This document shows, one piece after another, positions 33,924 through 39,239 of a stretch of 39,239 nt of DNA. Numbering within the stretch: the first letter of the stretch is position 1; each line of letters begins with the position of its first letter. Source of the DNA: Actinomycetes bacterium (GTDB taxonomy: Bacteria > Actinomycetota > Actinomycetes > DATJPE01); the NCBI GenBank assembly GCA_035506535.1, contig DATJPE010000015.1, forward strand, positions 1 to 39,239, in the 5' to 3' direction. The position numbers were made by a program, and so were the translations under genes. The notes below the pieces were generated by a model. That model did no database searches, had not been told where the DNA came from, and saw only the letters and a program-made list of their open reading frames with translations.

Positions 33924-34205
33924 ATGACCATGTATCGAGTCGAGGTGGGCCTGCTCGCGCGCCGGGTGCACCCCGCGTCGGCCGCCTCTGCGTCGCGACG
34001 TGTGCCGGCGGGCCGTCACGCCCGACCTGGGCGGCTGCGTCGGGCGGCCACCGCCGTCCTGCACTTCCTGACTCGGGCGCTGACCGCTGCAGCGCCCGCG
34101 GGTGGGTTCGCGCCTGGGGCGTCAGCGTGGACGCCCGACGAGGCAGCGTTCCCTCCGGAGCGGCGCGCCCCCGCGTCGCCGGCGGCGGGCGGGTGGTCGC
34201 AGTGA
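33924..34205 (+). CDS. Hypothetical 93-residue protein ahead of the kinase cluster
   Basis: The frame MTMYRVEVGLLARRVHPAS to AAGGWSQ starts at an ATG preceded by GGAGGGAG at a good distance. It ends in a 4-base GTGA overlap with the next gene. These two signs favour translation. The sequence is rich in Ala, Pro and Arg and has no domain I recognise; a mildly amphipathic helix (ATAVLHFLTRALTAAAP) lies in the middle. It could be a leader for coupling or a small partner. The 115 bases before it hold no clear gene. Confidence 0.45.
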   Translation: MTMYRVEVGLLARRVHPASAASASRRVPAGRHARPGRLRRAATAVLHFLTRALTAAAPAGGFAPGASAWTPDEAAFPPERRAPASPAAGGWSQ

Positions 34206-35020
34206 GCCGGCGGCTCGCGCGCTCCGCGTCTGCGGCCCCGCCCGCCGTCTGGGAGGGACATCCGGTGCCGGCGGACCTCACCAGAACAGTCGTCGATGCG
34301 GGCACGTCGCCGTGGCGCGCCGACCCGTTCGACCCCACCCGAGATCGGCTCTTCGACGGATGCTGGGGACCTCTCACACGCCTGACTCCGCCTCCCGGCG
34401 CTTCCGCGCGGGAGATCAGGTCGTCGGGCTTCTTCTGGGACCCGCTGCCCAACCACGGGCCATCGGCCGAGGAGCTTGCCGCCGCTGCCCGGCACACCTA
34501 CCGACGAGGCGCGGCGCTGCTCGCGTTGGCCGCGGCGGTCGGTGTCGCGGTCGGTGCCAGGTCTCTCTGGCTGAACGCCCAGCCGCAACCGGACTACACC
34601 CTGACCGGATTGGGGTTCTCGCTCTTGCTCATCCTGACACCCGTCGCCCTCGGTGAGCTCCGGTCGGCACGCATGCTGGCCATGCTGGCCCAAGCCGCGC
34701 GGGTCGCCGAGGACGAACTCAGCGCGGGCCAGTGCTGGTGCTTGATGAGCCGCCCGCACCGGGGGCTGCGCCTCACGGCCGCCGTGACCGTCTGCGCCGC
34801 GGCCGCCGCCGCGTGTGCATCATTCCTGGGCCAGTACATGTGGGACGGGCCGAATGTGCCGGAGACCGTACCCGTCGAGGACTACGGCCACCAGCTCCTC
34901 GTCGTGGCAGTCACGGTGTCCATGGCCATCGGTCTGCTCGTCGTGCTGCTCGGACGACCGGAGCGACTCGTCCGCGCCGACGCTTCCCTGGACCTCCCCC
35001 GCCGCCCGCCCGAGTCCTAG
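34202..35020 (+). CDS. Four-helix membrane protein of the kinase cluster
   Basis: The 272-residue protein starts at a GTG overlapping the preceding stop. A soluble N-terminus of about 100 residues (FDPTRDRLFDGCWGPLTRL) is followed by four hydrophobic helices: ALLALAAAVGVAVGA, LGFSLLLILTPVALG, AAVTVCAAAAAACASFLG and LLVVAVTVSMAIGLLVVLL. A cytoplasmic-looking loop rich in Ala and Arg (SARMLAMLAQAARVAEDELSAGQCWC) separates the second and third. No family is recognised. Its position before the FHA and kinase genes suggests a membrane partner or sensor. Confidence 0.7.
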   Translation: MSRRLARSASAAPPAVWEGHPVPADLTRTVVDAGTSPWRADPFDPTRDRLFDGCWGPLTRLTPPPGASAREIRSSGFFWDPLPNHGPSAEELAAAARHTYRRGAALLALAAAVGVAVGARSLWLNAQPQPDYTLTGLGFSLLLILTPVALGELRSARMLAMLAQAARVAEDELSAGQCWCLMSRPHRGLRLTAAVTVCAAAAAACASFLGQYMWDGPNVPETVPVEDYGHQLLVVAVTVSMAIGLLVVLLGRPERLVRADASLDLPRRPPES

Positions 35021-35056
35021 ACTCATCGGGCTGCACGCGCCGCAGGGAGGTCCATC

Positions 35057-35659
35057 GTGGCCACGCTGGACGTCAGGGGACCGCTGACTCGGGACGTGAT
35101 CGCCCTCGAGGGCTCGCGCTTGACCTTGGGTGCGAGCCCCCGCGCCGACATCGTCATCGAGGGCGATCCCACCGTCTCGAAGCTGCACCTGGTCCTCGAG
35201 CTCATCGGATCGACGTGGTTCGTCCGGGACCTCGGTGCGCGCAACGGCACGTTCCTCAACGGCGAGGCCGTTCTCGGAGAGCGACCCCTGCGGCCCGGGG
35301 ACGAGGTGATGGTGGGACGCACCACGCTCACCTTCCGTGACCCGGCATCCGTGCGCGACCGGACCACCGAGACGGCCAAGCCGCCGCCCGAGCTGACCCC
35401 CGGAGAGCGCAAGGTGCTCAACGAGCTCTGCCGTCCGATGGTCGCGGGCACCGTGTTCACCGCCCCCGCCACCGTGCGCGAGATCGCCGCCGCCTTGGTC
35501 GTCGGTCAACCGGCCGTGAAGCAGCATCTCGCGAACCTCTACACCAAGTTCGGGATCCCTCCCGACGGAACCCAGAACCGTCGGGTGCTCCTGGCCAACG
35601 AGGCGCTGAGCCGGGGCGCGGTGCGGACCTCGGACCTGCTGAAGTCGCGCGCCGACTGA
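35057..35659 (+). CDS. FHA domain protein with C-terminal helix-turn-helix
   Basis: The 200-residue protein starts at GTG 35057 with GGGAGG upstream. Residues 5-95 form an FHA fold: LTLGASPRADIVI, VSKLHLVL (S41, H44) and ARNGTFLNGE (N63). FHA domains bind phosphothreonine, but the Arg usually following LG is Ala here, so binding may be weak or altered. Residues 110-200 resemble a transcription-factor-like winged helix (LTPGERKVLNEL; REIAAALVVGQPAVKQHLANLYTKFGI). It is followed after one base by the kinase gene, so it is likely a partner or substrate that relays kinase activity to DNA or to another protein. Confidence 0.85.
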   Translation: MATLDVRGPLTRDVIALEGSRLTLGASPRADIVIEGDPTVSKLHLVLELIGSTWFVRDLGARNGTFLNGEAVLGERPLRPGDEVMVGRTTLTFRDPASVRDRTTETAKPPPELTPGERKVLNELCRPMVAGTVFTAPATVREIAAALVVGQPAVKQHLANLYTKFGIPPDGTQNRRVLLANEALSRGAVRTSDLLKSRAD

Positions 35660-35660
35660 C

Positions 35661-38600
35661 ATGGAGCGGCTCACCGATCGCTACGACGTAGCGGAGGAGA
35701 TCGGTGGGACAGGACGCGCACGTGTCTTGCGGGGCTGGGACCGCCGCCGGGCCCGTGCGGTGGCGATCAAGATCGTTCCGGTCCCCGATGAGGACCAGCG
35801 CGAGCGGCTGCGCGGGCAGGTCGAGCTCCTCATGGGCGTCCCGGCGCATCCGGGTCTCGTGGCCGTGGTCGACGAGGTGTCCGTGGACCGCTCGCACGCG
35901 GTCGTCCTGGACTGGGTCGAGGGCGTCGACCTCGGCAGCGAGCTGCGCGAGAACGGACGACCGGGTCTGGACCTGGAGATGGTCCTCGCGTGCGCCGAAC
36001 AGGTCGCGTCGGCGCTGGACCACCTCCACCGCGGCCCACGACCTGTGGTGCACGGGGACATCAAGCCCTCCAACATCGTCAGGACGCCCGAGGGTCGAGT
36101 CGTCGTCGTGGACTTCGGCAGCTCGGTGGTCCCCGGCGAACCCGCGACCACCGGTACGAGGGGGTACGCCGCCCCGGAGCTGGCCTCCTCTGGATTGCTG
36201 ACGCCGGCCTCGGACGTCTACGGCCTCGCGGCGACCGTGGTCGCCCTCCTGACCGGTCGGCCTCCTGACGGGGGCCGACCGAGGATCGACGACCTCCCGC
36301 CCGACACAGCTGCGCGGCTGCGGCACACGCTCGCCCGGGCGCTGGCCACGGATCCTCACGCGCGGCCCGCATCCGCAGGAGACCTCGCACGTGCCCTGCG
36401 CGGCAGGGACGCAGGCAACCGTTGCGCGATGCTGGTCGCCGCGGACCTGGACGAGTCAGAGACCGCACCCGACCCCGCTGAGGGCGCACGCCGGTCGCGG
36501 GCGATCCCGGATCGTCACCTGGGGCTGCTGATGGCCGAGGTCGCCGAGGACCTGGGTGGCGTCGCCCTGCACGGACGGGGACGACCCAGCCCCCGCGTGT
36601 ACCGCCTGCCGGGGCCTGATGCCGCGATCGCCTTCGTCTCGGCGATCCGCCACGAGTATCCCCGGCGCGTGCCGAGCTCGGTGGCGGTGCGCCTTCGCAT
36701 GGCACTCCATGCCGCAACCCGCCCCGCAGCCGACGCGGAGGTCGCTGTCATCGGCGCACTGAGGCTGTCCTCGCCGGGCCTCACCGTGGTGACCGGGCCG
36801 GCTGCCCGAGCGGTGAGCCCTCCGGCCGGTCTCGAGCTCGTGCGTATCGGCGTCTTCTCCTCGGAGCTCTCGCGCCCGGTGCAGCTCTTCGCCCTCGCCG
36901 ACGAAGGAGCTGACCCCCCGCCCCTGCGCGCCAAGCAGACGGAGAGCTCCGACTTCGCGGCGGAGGATGCCTCCTCCGGGCACCCCTTCATCGGGCGGTC
37001 GGCTGAGCTGGAGAGCCTGCTCGGCCTGGTCACGAGCGAGCGCCTCGTCACCGTCACCGGCGCGGCCGGCATCGGGAAGTCCCGAACGAGTGAGGAGTTG
37101 GTCCGGGCGGTGGCGGGCGGGTTCCCGGACGGTGTCTGGTGGGTCGACCTGCACGCGGCCGCCGCCGTCGCGCCTGCCGTCCTTGCCGCGCTCGGAGCAG
37201 AAGGGTCGGCGTCGGGAACTCTCGCCACGCCCACTCGCCCGCGACGTCGCTCCGCCGAGCAGCGACTGCTCGAGCGCCTGGTCGGGCAGTCCGCGTTGCT
37301 GGTGCTGGACGGATGCGACGAGCTGCTCGAGGAGTCGGCCGAGCTGCTCAACCGCCTGCTCGCGGACTGCCCCTCGATGACTATCCTCGCCACGAGCCGG
37401 ACCCCGCTCGGTATGGTCGAAGAGCGCGTCCTGCGCCTCGGCCCGCTCGAGGACGCCGATGCGTTGCGGCTGCTCTCCCTGCTGCTCCACCTGGACCGTC
37501 CGGCGGCTTCGGAACAGGACCTCGACGTCGCCCGGGACATCTGCCAGCTCGTCGACCGCGTCCCTCAGTCACTCGTCGTCGCGGCGTCGAGATGGCCGGC
37601 CATGAGCCTGGCACAGATCCGTGATTCGCTGACTGCGGGGCATCCCGGAAGTTCGGGCGGCAGAGATGCTCATGCCGCTCTGCAGTGGAGCGTCGCCTCG
37701 CTCCCCCCTGACGAGCTCGAGCTGCTCGCCGCCGTCACTCTCTTCCCGTCAGGCTTCAGCGCGGAGGCGGCCTCGGCCGTCGGCGGCGTCGATCGCGTCG
37801 TCGCGCTGTCCCTGCTCTACGCCCTGACCCGCCGCTCACTGCTCGAGGCTGAGCGCTCGCCGGGACCCGCGCGCTTTCGGATGCTGACTGCGACGCGCGA
37901 GGTCGCAGCCGCGCACCTGACCTCGTCGGGACGTCTCCGCTCGGCACAGGACCGGTTCGCAGCGTGGGGAGAGGACTTCGTGGCGCGGTTCGCGACCGGC
38001 TGCGCCGGGAGGGACCAGGCGCACTGGCTCGATGCGGCTCACGTCGACATCGCCAACCTGCGTGCCGCGTTCGAGTGTGGGCTGGCGCGGCCGGGGACGA
38101 GTCGACCGGCGCGCCTCGCCGCCGGCCTGGCGACCTACTGGATGGTTCGAGGACCGGTGACCCAGGGACGGGAGTGGCTTCGACGGGCCCTCGCGGCCAT
38201 GCCCGGCGGCGAGGCCGACGTCGAGGAGGGGCGGCGCGAGGCGGAGTGCACCGCCGGATGGCTCGCGTGCTTCGGTGGCGACCCCGTCGCGGCGGCGACG
38301 GCATCGCTGCGAGCCATCGGGTCGTCGTCCGGTGCCGGTGCATCGATCAACGCCCGCGCGCTGTCGGTCCTGGGGCTGGTGGCCTCGTCATCGGGCCAGC
38401 AGGAGGTGGCCATCCGCCGGCACGAGGCGGCACTCGCTTCCGCGCGCTCCGCCGGGGACCGCGCGGCCGTTGCTTTCGTCACGGCGAACCTGGCCAACCC
38501 GCTGGCACTCCGCGGGCGGGTCGGGGAGGCGCGCAAGCTCCTCGAGGACAGCCTCGCGCTCCGCAGAGCGCAGGAGGACTCCTACGGCATCAGCTGGAGC

Positions 38601-39239
38601 TGCTTTCGGCTGGGCCTGCTCCTGCTGTCCTGCGGCGAGATGCCCGAGGCCCGCGGGCTCCTGCTGGAGGCGTGGGAGTCGGCGTCGGAGATCGGCTACA
38701 CCCAGGGCCGGATCAACGCCGCGCTCGGGCTTGGCCGGCTGCTGCTGTCCACCGGTCACCCACGAGCCGGCGCCCGGTGGTTCGCCGAGGCCGACGAGGC
38801 GGCGGAGTCGGTCGGCGACCCCACATCGAGGTCCCTGGCTCTCGCCGGGACCCTCGAGTGCGCGGCCTGGGGTGGGAGCGCGGCCGACCTCGCTCGTTGC
38901 ATGGACCACCTCGATGCCTCCGACTGGGCGGGCAGCGTCGAGACCGTCGCCGACCGCGCGCTGGCGCACGCCGCCGTGGCCGAGATCGCCGCGGAGACCG
39001 GCGAGGCGCGCGACCGCCTGCGCCAGGCCCTGGTCGCCCTGGCCTGGCTCGGCGACCGCGGGCGACAGGTCGAGGTGCTCGAACGGCTGGCCGTGCTGGC
39101 CGCGGCCGAGGACCAGTGGCGCGACGCCGCCTTCCTGTTCACCCTCGCTCGCCGGGAGCGGGAGCGCACCGGTTGGATCCCTCGACGCGGACCGGCCCTC
39201 GCCGCCGTAGCGGCCCACCTCCGGCGCGACACCGACCCG
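35661..39239 (+). CDS. Ser/Thr kinase fused to degenerate cyclase-like domain, STAND/AAA NTPase and helical repeats (partial)
   Basis: The frame is open from ATG 35661 to the window end, so at least 1193 residues are present and the stop is missing. Residues 8-250 form a Ser/Thr kinase: Gly loop GGTGRARV, K37 in VAIKIV, catalytic HGDIKPSN (131-138, Arg of HRD replaced by Gly), DFG (151-153) and APE (171-173). Residues ~255-415 look like a class III nucleotidyl cyclase domain that has lost its GDG metal site. Residues ~440-700 are a STAND/AAA NTPase with P loop GAAGIGKS (467-474) and Walker B LVLDGCDE (D550, D553, E554). The rest is TPR-like helical repeats. The gene follows the FHA gene by one base. 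Role unknown: a kinase-controlled signalling switch. Confidence 0.88.
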   Translation, partial: MERLTDRYDVAEEIGGTGRARVLRGWDRRRARAVAIKIVPVPDEDQRERLRGQVELLMGVPAHPGLVAVVDEVSVDRSHAVVLDWVEGVDLGSELRENGRPGLDLEMVLACAEQVASALDHLHRGPRPVVHGDIKPSNIVRTPEGRVVVVDFGSSVVPGEPATTGTRGYAAPELASSGLLTPASDVYGLAATVVALLTGRPPDGGRPRIDDLPPDTAARLRHTLARALATDPHARPASAGDLARALRGRDAGNRCAMLVAADLDESETAPDPAEGARRSRAIPDRHLGLLMAEVAEDLGGVALHGRGRPSPRVYRLPGPDAAIAFVSAIRHEYPRRVPSSVAVRLRMALHAATRPAADAEVAVIGALRLSSPGLTVVTGPAARAVSPPAGLELVRIGVFSSELSRPVQLFALADEGADPPPLRAKQTESSDFAAEDASSGHPFIGRSAELESLLGLVTSERLVTVTGAAGIGKSRTSEELVRAVAGGFPDGVWWVDLHAAAAVAPAVLAALGAEGSASGTLATPTRPRRRSAEQRLLERLVGQSALLVLDGCDELLEESAELLNRLLADCPSMTILATSRTPLGMVEERVLRLGPLEDADALRLLSLLLHLDRPAASEQDLDVARDICQLVDRVPQSLVVAASRWPAMSLAQIRDSLTAGHPGSSGGRDAHAALQWSVASLPPDELELLAAVTLFPSGFSAEAASAVGGVDRVVALSLLYALTRRSLLEAERSPGPARFRMLTATREVAAAHLTSSGRLRSAQDRFAAWGEDFVARFATGCAGRDQAHWLDAAHVDIANLRAAFECGLARPGTSRPARLAAGLATYWMVRGPVTQGREWLRRALAAMPGGEADVEEGRREAECTAGWLACFGGDPVAAATASLRAIGSSSGAGASINARALSVLGLVASSSGQQEVAIRRHEAALASARSAGDRAAVAFVTANLANPLALRGRVGEARKLLEDSLALRRAQEDSYGISWSCFRLGLLLLSCGEMPEARGLLLEAWESASEIGYTQGRINAALGLGRLLLSTGHPRAGARWFAEADEAAESVGDPTSRSLALAGTLECAAWGGSAADLARCMDHLDASDWAGSVETVADRALAHAAVAEIAAETGEARDRLRQALVALAWLGDRGRQVEVLERLAVLAAAEDQWRDAAFLFTLARRERERTGWIPRRGPALAAVAAHLRRDTDP

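Follow-up and report, generated by a model that had tools for sequence, protein, structure and literature searches.

Most bacterial serine/threonine (Ser/Thr) kinases have no assigned output, and the question raised by the 3' end of contig DATJPE010000015.1 is whether a large multidomain kinase and the small regulator encoded next to it form one signalling system. The window analysed here (39,239 nucleotides) is one entire contig (C15) of a 3.35 Mb assembly of 102 contigs from an Actinomycetes bacterium. At its end, a gene for a protein with a forkhead-associated (FHA) domain and a helix-turn-helix (FHA-HTH protein; 35057-35659, + strand) is followed by the frame of a multidomain Ser/Thr kinase (35661-39239, + strand). 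We consider it probable, with moderate confidence, that the two form a dedicated Ser/Thr-kinase signalling pair resembling a two-component system, in which a ligand would control the kinase through its STAND-TPR part and Thr104 of the regulator would act as the switch. This reading draws on the domain content and order of both proteins, the coupling of their genes, a neighbourhood that recurs with exchanged sensors, the clade of the kinase and the conservation of the linker threonine.

Domain organisation of the kinase and its FHA-HTH neighbour

The FHA-HTH gene encodes 200 residues from a GTG start with GGGAGG upstream. Its coding signal, calculated as the codon-usage log-odds of each open reading frame (ORF), was +66.5, and that of the kinase frame, which spans at least 1193 residues, was +230. 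The ATG of the kinase frame begins 1 nt past the FHA-HTH stop codon, and this single-nucleotide gap suggests translational coupling. The frame is open because the contig stops at 39239, so that the 3' end of the kinase gene is missing; the last 1240 bases of the window matched no other contig of the genome. By comparison with a relative at locus L107, about 50 residues may be missing, unless a further fusion is present.

The large protein is ordered as a kinase domain, a degenerate class III nucleotide cyclase domain, a signal transduction ATPase with numerous domains (STAND) and tetratricopeptide repeats (TPRs). The Hanks-type kinase domain (35661-36410, +; residues 1-250) matched PF00069 at 5.6e-25 and retains K37, D133 of the HGD motif, N138, D151 and T166. 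In an alignment with its relatives (A2), K37 (VAIK), D133 (HxD), N138 (catalytic loop), D151 (DFG) and E173 (APE) were invariant, and T166 is the conserved threonine of the activation segment; the alpha-C glutamate is replaced by glutamine.

The segment between the kinase and STAND parts (36417-36950, +; residues ~253-430) matched no Pfam family and, when searched alone with phmmer against the PDB, no solved structure. It does align with the cyclase part of the kinases at loci L107, L114, L117 and L126 and with that of a cyclase-STAND protein that this genome also encodes, and a profile built from this alignment (A3) matched solved class III cyclases (Ma1120, 7.8e-24). As read by eye, the first metal-binding aspartate is kept, the second is lost and the transition-state Asn/Arg pair aligns to alanine, while the cyclase domain of L107 looks intact. 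On sequence grounds, the window domain is a degenerate class III cyclase.

The STAND NTPase (36978-37955, +; residues ~440-765) is NB-ARC/AP-ATPase-like, with the Walker A motif GAAGIGKS at residues 467-474 and, by direct reading, the Walker B motif LVLDGCDE. Its nucleotide-binding oligomerisation domain (NOD) is followed by repeats, which form a TPR superhelix, the predicted sensor (37998-39239, +; residues ~780-1193), cut by the contig end. Pfam matches to AAA_16, AAA_22 and NACHT were above the cutoff, that to NB-ARC was weak, and the TPRs were also matched. A structural model of the part from pseudo-cyclase to TPR reached a mean predicted local distance difference test score (pLDDT) of 73, with the TPR part confident and the cyclase part not. 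The best Foldseek match of this model was 6mfv, a STAND protein whose sensor is a TPR domain, followed by Apaf-1; MalT domain III was among the matches of the TPR part alone. None of AfsR, MalT and PknK is named among the best 50 rows for the model, an absence that is no evidence either way.

In the FHA-HTH protein, the FHA domain (35063-35341, +; residues ~3-95) matched PF00498 at 3.8e-15, and its predicted fold was nearest to the FHA domains of GarA/OdhI and EmbR. The LuxR/GerE-type HTH (35390-35617, +; residues ~112-187) was identified by Pfam (HTH_5/GerE), by profile and by its predicted fold. A profile of the family (A5) matched the GarA and EmbR FHA domains as well as the HTH of GerE and ChrA, and together with the predicted fold it places both domains of an FHA+LuxR regulator in one protein; no BTAD match was found by Pfam. 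The FHA motif comprises GR, SxxH and NG (PMC1262709). The window copy retains SxxH and NG (S41, H44, N63) in an FHA fold, and its GR is GA, the canonical arginine being Ala26. Over 81 aligned rows, this position was Lys in 59, Arg in 9, Ser in 9, Ala in 2 and Leu in 2. As the canonical arginine is absent, phosphate reading by the FHA domain is less certain in the window copy than in its relatives. The window row had no firm placement in the FHA tree.

The sequence-only reading had described an FHA-HTH protein beside a kinase of more than 1190 residues with pseudo-cyclase, STAND and repeat parts, and the Pfam, profile and fold results agree with it.

Recurrence of the gene pair with exchanged sensors

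Conserved gene neighbourhoods can be read from either partner, and both directions were followed. A single-sequence scan of genome contigs for FHA-HTH relatives returned nothing, while a scan with an alignment (A1) gave 80 named loci; relatives occurred in 97 of the 393 class genomes, some matches spanning one of the two domains alone. A kinase frame lay within 800 nt of the FHA-HTH gene at 62 of the 80 loci, whereas 696 kb of flanking sequence more than 4.5 kb away yielded one kinase match. Several of the remaining 18 were cut by contig ends or had a kinase 1-3 kb away. Across the loci, at least eight arrangements or architectures were counted. The kinase lies upstream of the FHA-HTH gene in Micromonosporaceae, downstream in Pseudonocardia and at L107, L087 and L131, and divergently in Solirubrobacter. 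One sampled FHA-HTH subfamily (L060-L064) had no kinase detected in the flanks examined. As side observations, the kinase is 1-2 kb off at L076, L099 and L111; by eye, a PP2C-like protein is encoded near the FHA-HTH gene at L099 and L111, and a vWA-like protein at L111.

In the reverse direction, the kinase alignment A2 alone was searched against 396 genomes of the phylum. Eight loci besides the window scored above 290 bits, the next at 176 bits, and an FHA-HTH gene directly adjoined six of the eight (L185, L186, L187, L189, L190 and L192). The 176-bit locus, L193, also had one, giving seven of nine, although L185 and L187 apparently duplicate the records of L107 and L079 and are not new genomes. 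The order of the window, FHA-HTH and then directly the kinase, was also seen at L107/L185, L189, L190, L192 and L193, where the two genes are spaced at about -1 to +35 nt. An N-terminal query of the large kinase against the class genomes gave few matches. Adjacency in other genomes, the lack of which had been named as one result that would refute the sequence-only reading, was thus found for the kinase and its FHA-HTH neighbour in both directions and not for the other two genes that had been placed in the unit, a membrane protein and a small ORF.

The window kinase clusters with STAND-type partner kinases (support 98/96), and the sensor part varies among them. According to Pfam analysis of representatives, the kinase-cyclase-AAA/NB-ARC-TPR order is shared by L107 and by L191, which has no FHA-HTH neighbour. 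The window kinase is 42% identical to that of L107 in the kinase, 29% in the cyclase, 34% in the STAND and 32% in the TPR part. Other Pfam architectures are kinase-cyclase-nSTAND1-WD40 at L190, kinase-STAND at L075 and kinase-Kelch at L142 and L144; nSTAND1 and WD40 were among the best 25 Pfam rows for L114, L117 and L186, the first two of which align in the cyclase part. The partner kinase of L131 (4725-6260, +) ends in a NADase_transloc / F5_8 type C (discoidin-like) domain. At L189 (5363-15037, +), the kinase-cyclase protein is 3225 residues long and has three AAA_16 stretches, and the first base of its frame is also the final base of the FHA-HTH stop codon. At L188 (9794-11266, +), a 491-residue fusion joins a kinase from the clade of the window kinase to a response receiver and a LuxR HTH; because this locus, which has no adjacent FHA-HTH gene, carries such a fusion, it ties the clade to LuxR-type output. 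A kinase fragment with cell-wall-binding CWB2 repeats was also observed at L194 (8571-10136, +), with no FHA-HTH gene detected in the examined locus.

The linker between the FHA and HTH domains of kinase-linked proteins is variable apart from one threonine. Counted back from the HTH, this residue is at -9 in the parsed non-mycobacterial kinase-linked rows, with L076 and L099 (kinase about 1 kb off) differing, and at -12 in almost every mycobacterial-type row. Position -9 is glutamate in 14 of 16 rows of the subfamily whose checked loci had no kinase detected next to the gene. Three rows failed to parse, and the two registers were grouped after inspection of the sequences. In the window protein the threonine is Thr104 (35366-35368, +; position -9), and residues 100-106 of the model have a pLDDT below 50. 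Thr104 is a candidate phosphorylation target, and no more, because it is conserved, lies in a low-pLDDT linker and recalls GarA, whose phospho-acceptor ETTS motif is in an unstructured segment and is bound by its own FHA domain (PMC5448819).

Proposed mechanism and alternative explanations

In the mechanism that we propose, the C-terminal TPR superhelix would sense a ligand or partner protein, which would free the STAND NTPase to leave its closed state for an open one that is probably oligomeric. Opening would bring kinase domains together, and the degenerate cyclase domain may contribute binding or dimerisation without catalysis. Once activated, the kinase would phosphorylate the FHA-HTH protein, most likely on Thr104 of the linker; the FHA domain would engage a phosphothreonine, which may belong to its own protein, as in GarA/OdhI, or to the kinase, and this engagement would alter DNA binding by the LuxR-type HTH.

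Several points weigh against the pair so described. The 80 loci are not independent, and 62 of 80 overstates independence because about half of them are mycobacterial, where the two genes mostly converge instead of forming an operon. L188 and L191, strong kinase-clade loci, have no adjacent FHA-HTH gene. The genome itself is the sole member of its order in the genome set searched, and the window FHA-HTH protein and kinase both sit on long end branches (1.07 and 0.93). Its FHA domain has alanine where kinase-linked relatives mostly have lysine, and the alpha-C glutamine is confined to the window kinase, seven relatives having glutamate. The linker threonine could be structural instead, and the ligand, oligomerisation, phosphotransfer, phospho-switch and target genes are parts of the mechanism that we infer.

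With the two substitutions, function in this genome may be altered or reduced. Taken further, together with the lost cyclase residues and the long branches, they would fit a pair that is degenerating or non-catalytic in this one genome, with a dead cyclase, an altered FHA pocket and an altered kinase alpha-C. We find this improbable: the frames run uninterrupted for 200 and at least 1193 codons with coding-type codon bias, and HGD, the catalytic asparagine, DFG, the activation threonine and the Walker motifs are all retained. The neighbourhood might otherwise amount to no specific functional pair and only to a general tendency of FHA genes to lie near kinases; FHA genes are reported to cluster with kinases and phosphatases in M. 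tuberculosis (PMC1262709). Such clustering is quite unlikely to be the whole account, given that gene orders differ among lineages while the FHA-HTH family stays the same, that the two genes are coupled at 1 nt, that the reverse search recovers FHA-HTH proteins and that one subfamily has no detected kinase.

A different relationship between the two proteins, which we consider unlikely, is that the FHA-HTH protein is no substrate: it would bind the autophosphorylated kinase and report or repress its activity, its DNA binding being set by release. The nearness of its FHA fold to GarA and EmbR, the presence of the PknB-GarA complex 6i2p among the solved structures matched and the conserved T166 would all suit such docking, whereas the window FHA lacks the arginine, and the linker threonine, nearly invariant when kinase-linked, is replaced in the subfamily without a detected kinase, which argues for modification of the regulator. 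A defence role, raised as a possibility by the sequence-only reading, gained nothing. STAND proteins with repeats are a defence theme, and Avs3 stood at rank 43 of the fold matches; however, no defence island was seen, the other window genes are by eye housekeeping genes (rplU/rpmA-like ribosomal, mreB-like, ndk-like, folC-like and valS-like), the PADLOC matches shown for the large protein are generic kinase-domain models, and the conserved partner is a DNA-binding protein for which STAND is one of several paired sensors. An antiviral, Avs-like STAND system with the kinase as effector is therefore very improbable.

If the kinase and FHA-HTH protein do form a signalling pair, they may tentatively be taken as an example of a widespread and little-characterised Ser/Thr-kinase counterpart of two-component systems in Actinomycetota, possible rather than probable at this stage, with FHA-LuxR as the fixed output, interchangeable sensors (Kelch, WD40, STAND-TPR, discoidin) and an FHA-docked phosphorylated linker threonine as the switch. 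The conserved DNA-binding neighbour offers a testable output for several kinase architectures, including the Kelch type of many culturable environmental mycobacteria, and the pair is a case for how an FHA protein works with its canonical phosphate-binding arginine replaced.

Adjacent genes and comparison with known systems

Upstream of the pair, an orphan membrane protein (34265-35020, +; 251 residues, codon log-odds +29.7) has the four hydrophobic segments that had been read as helices. It was rejected as a conserved member of the unit: across 295 other class genomes, relatives were found in one, weakly, and it resembles none of the proteins encoded directly upstream of FHA-HTH genes at related loci. 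As it starts near 34265 and ends 36 nt before the FHA-HTH gene, it neither overlaps that gene nor lies one base from it, contrary to the earlier description. The small ORF at 33924-34205 was rejected as a gene, with a log-odds like that of non-coding sequence (-3.7) and no family match above the cutoff. Mycobacterial loci including L077, L093, L097 and L109 have a membrane protein gene just upstream of the FHA-HTH gene, mostly with six hydrophobic segments, and the N-terminal tail of these proteins carries repeats of the (E/K)T(V/T)R(L/M)R type, possible phospho-targets. Elsewhere in the same genome, contig C50 (L065, 6416-13363, -) holds a single 2316-residue frame that opens with a zinc-ribbon-like stretch, continues through FHA, cyclase-like, STAND and TPR parts and ends, in frame, in the C-terminal portion of an NAD-glutamate dehydrogenase; a PP2C and a PknG-type kinase are encoded upstream of it. 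The fusion junction had no match in 196 other class genomes, and a glutamate dehydrogenase frame of ordinary length lies on C78; an assembly chimera is possible.

FHA+LuxR proteins were catalogued in 2012 as a subfamily of Actinobacteria and ascribed to one fusion in an ancestor of Rhodococcus and Nocardia (PMC3466318). They have the same domain pair, and the part of that source consulted mentions no kinase pairing. The relatives found here occur in Mycobacteriaceae, Pseudonocardia, Micromonosporaceae, Solirubrobacter, Acidimicrobiia and others, mostly beside kinases; rows L026, L027, L029 and L030 of family f4 may be the published subfamily, an identity unconfirmed by accession. No description of an FHA-LuxR/kinase pairing was found in the literature searched, which covered open and not subscription sources, and the recurrent pairing with exchanged sensors appears to be new in that open literature.

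The EmbR-PknH system of Mycobacterium tuberculosis likewise joins a Ser/Thr kinase to an FHA-containing transcription factor. PknH is a transmembrane sensor kinase and not a STAND protein, unlike the window kinase. EmbR has an N-terminal DNA-binding domain, a BTA domain and a C-terminal FHA domain, whereas the window protein has an N-terminal FHA domain followed by the LuxR-type HTH. In EmbR-PknH, phosphorylation increases promoter binding (PMC4601284). PknK of M. tuberculosis is described in the same source as a soluble Ser/Thr kinase whose C-terminal region is of STAND type and which phosphorylates the transcription factor VirS; the text consulted mentions no cyclase domain for it, whereas the window kinase has one in degenerate form (PMC4601284). 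The PknK-VirS likeness, in kinase and C-terminal STAND, is taken from this published description, and VirS is of AraC type without FHA. GarA and OdhI resemble the window protein in their FHA fold and in having a flexible segment that bears a phospho-acceptor threonine, the role for which the window threonine is a candidate; GarA lacks an HTH and carries its motif at the N-terminus, and the linker motif is similar in kind only. Finally, 6mfv, Apaf-1 and AfsR combine a NOD with a TPR or other NOD-repeat arm, as predicted for the window kinase, whose effector, unlike theirs, is a protein kinase with a pseudo-cyclase.
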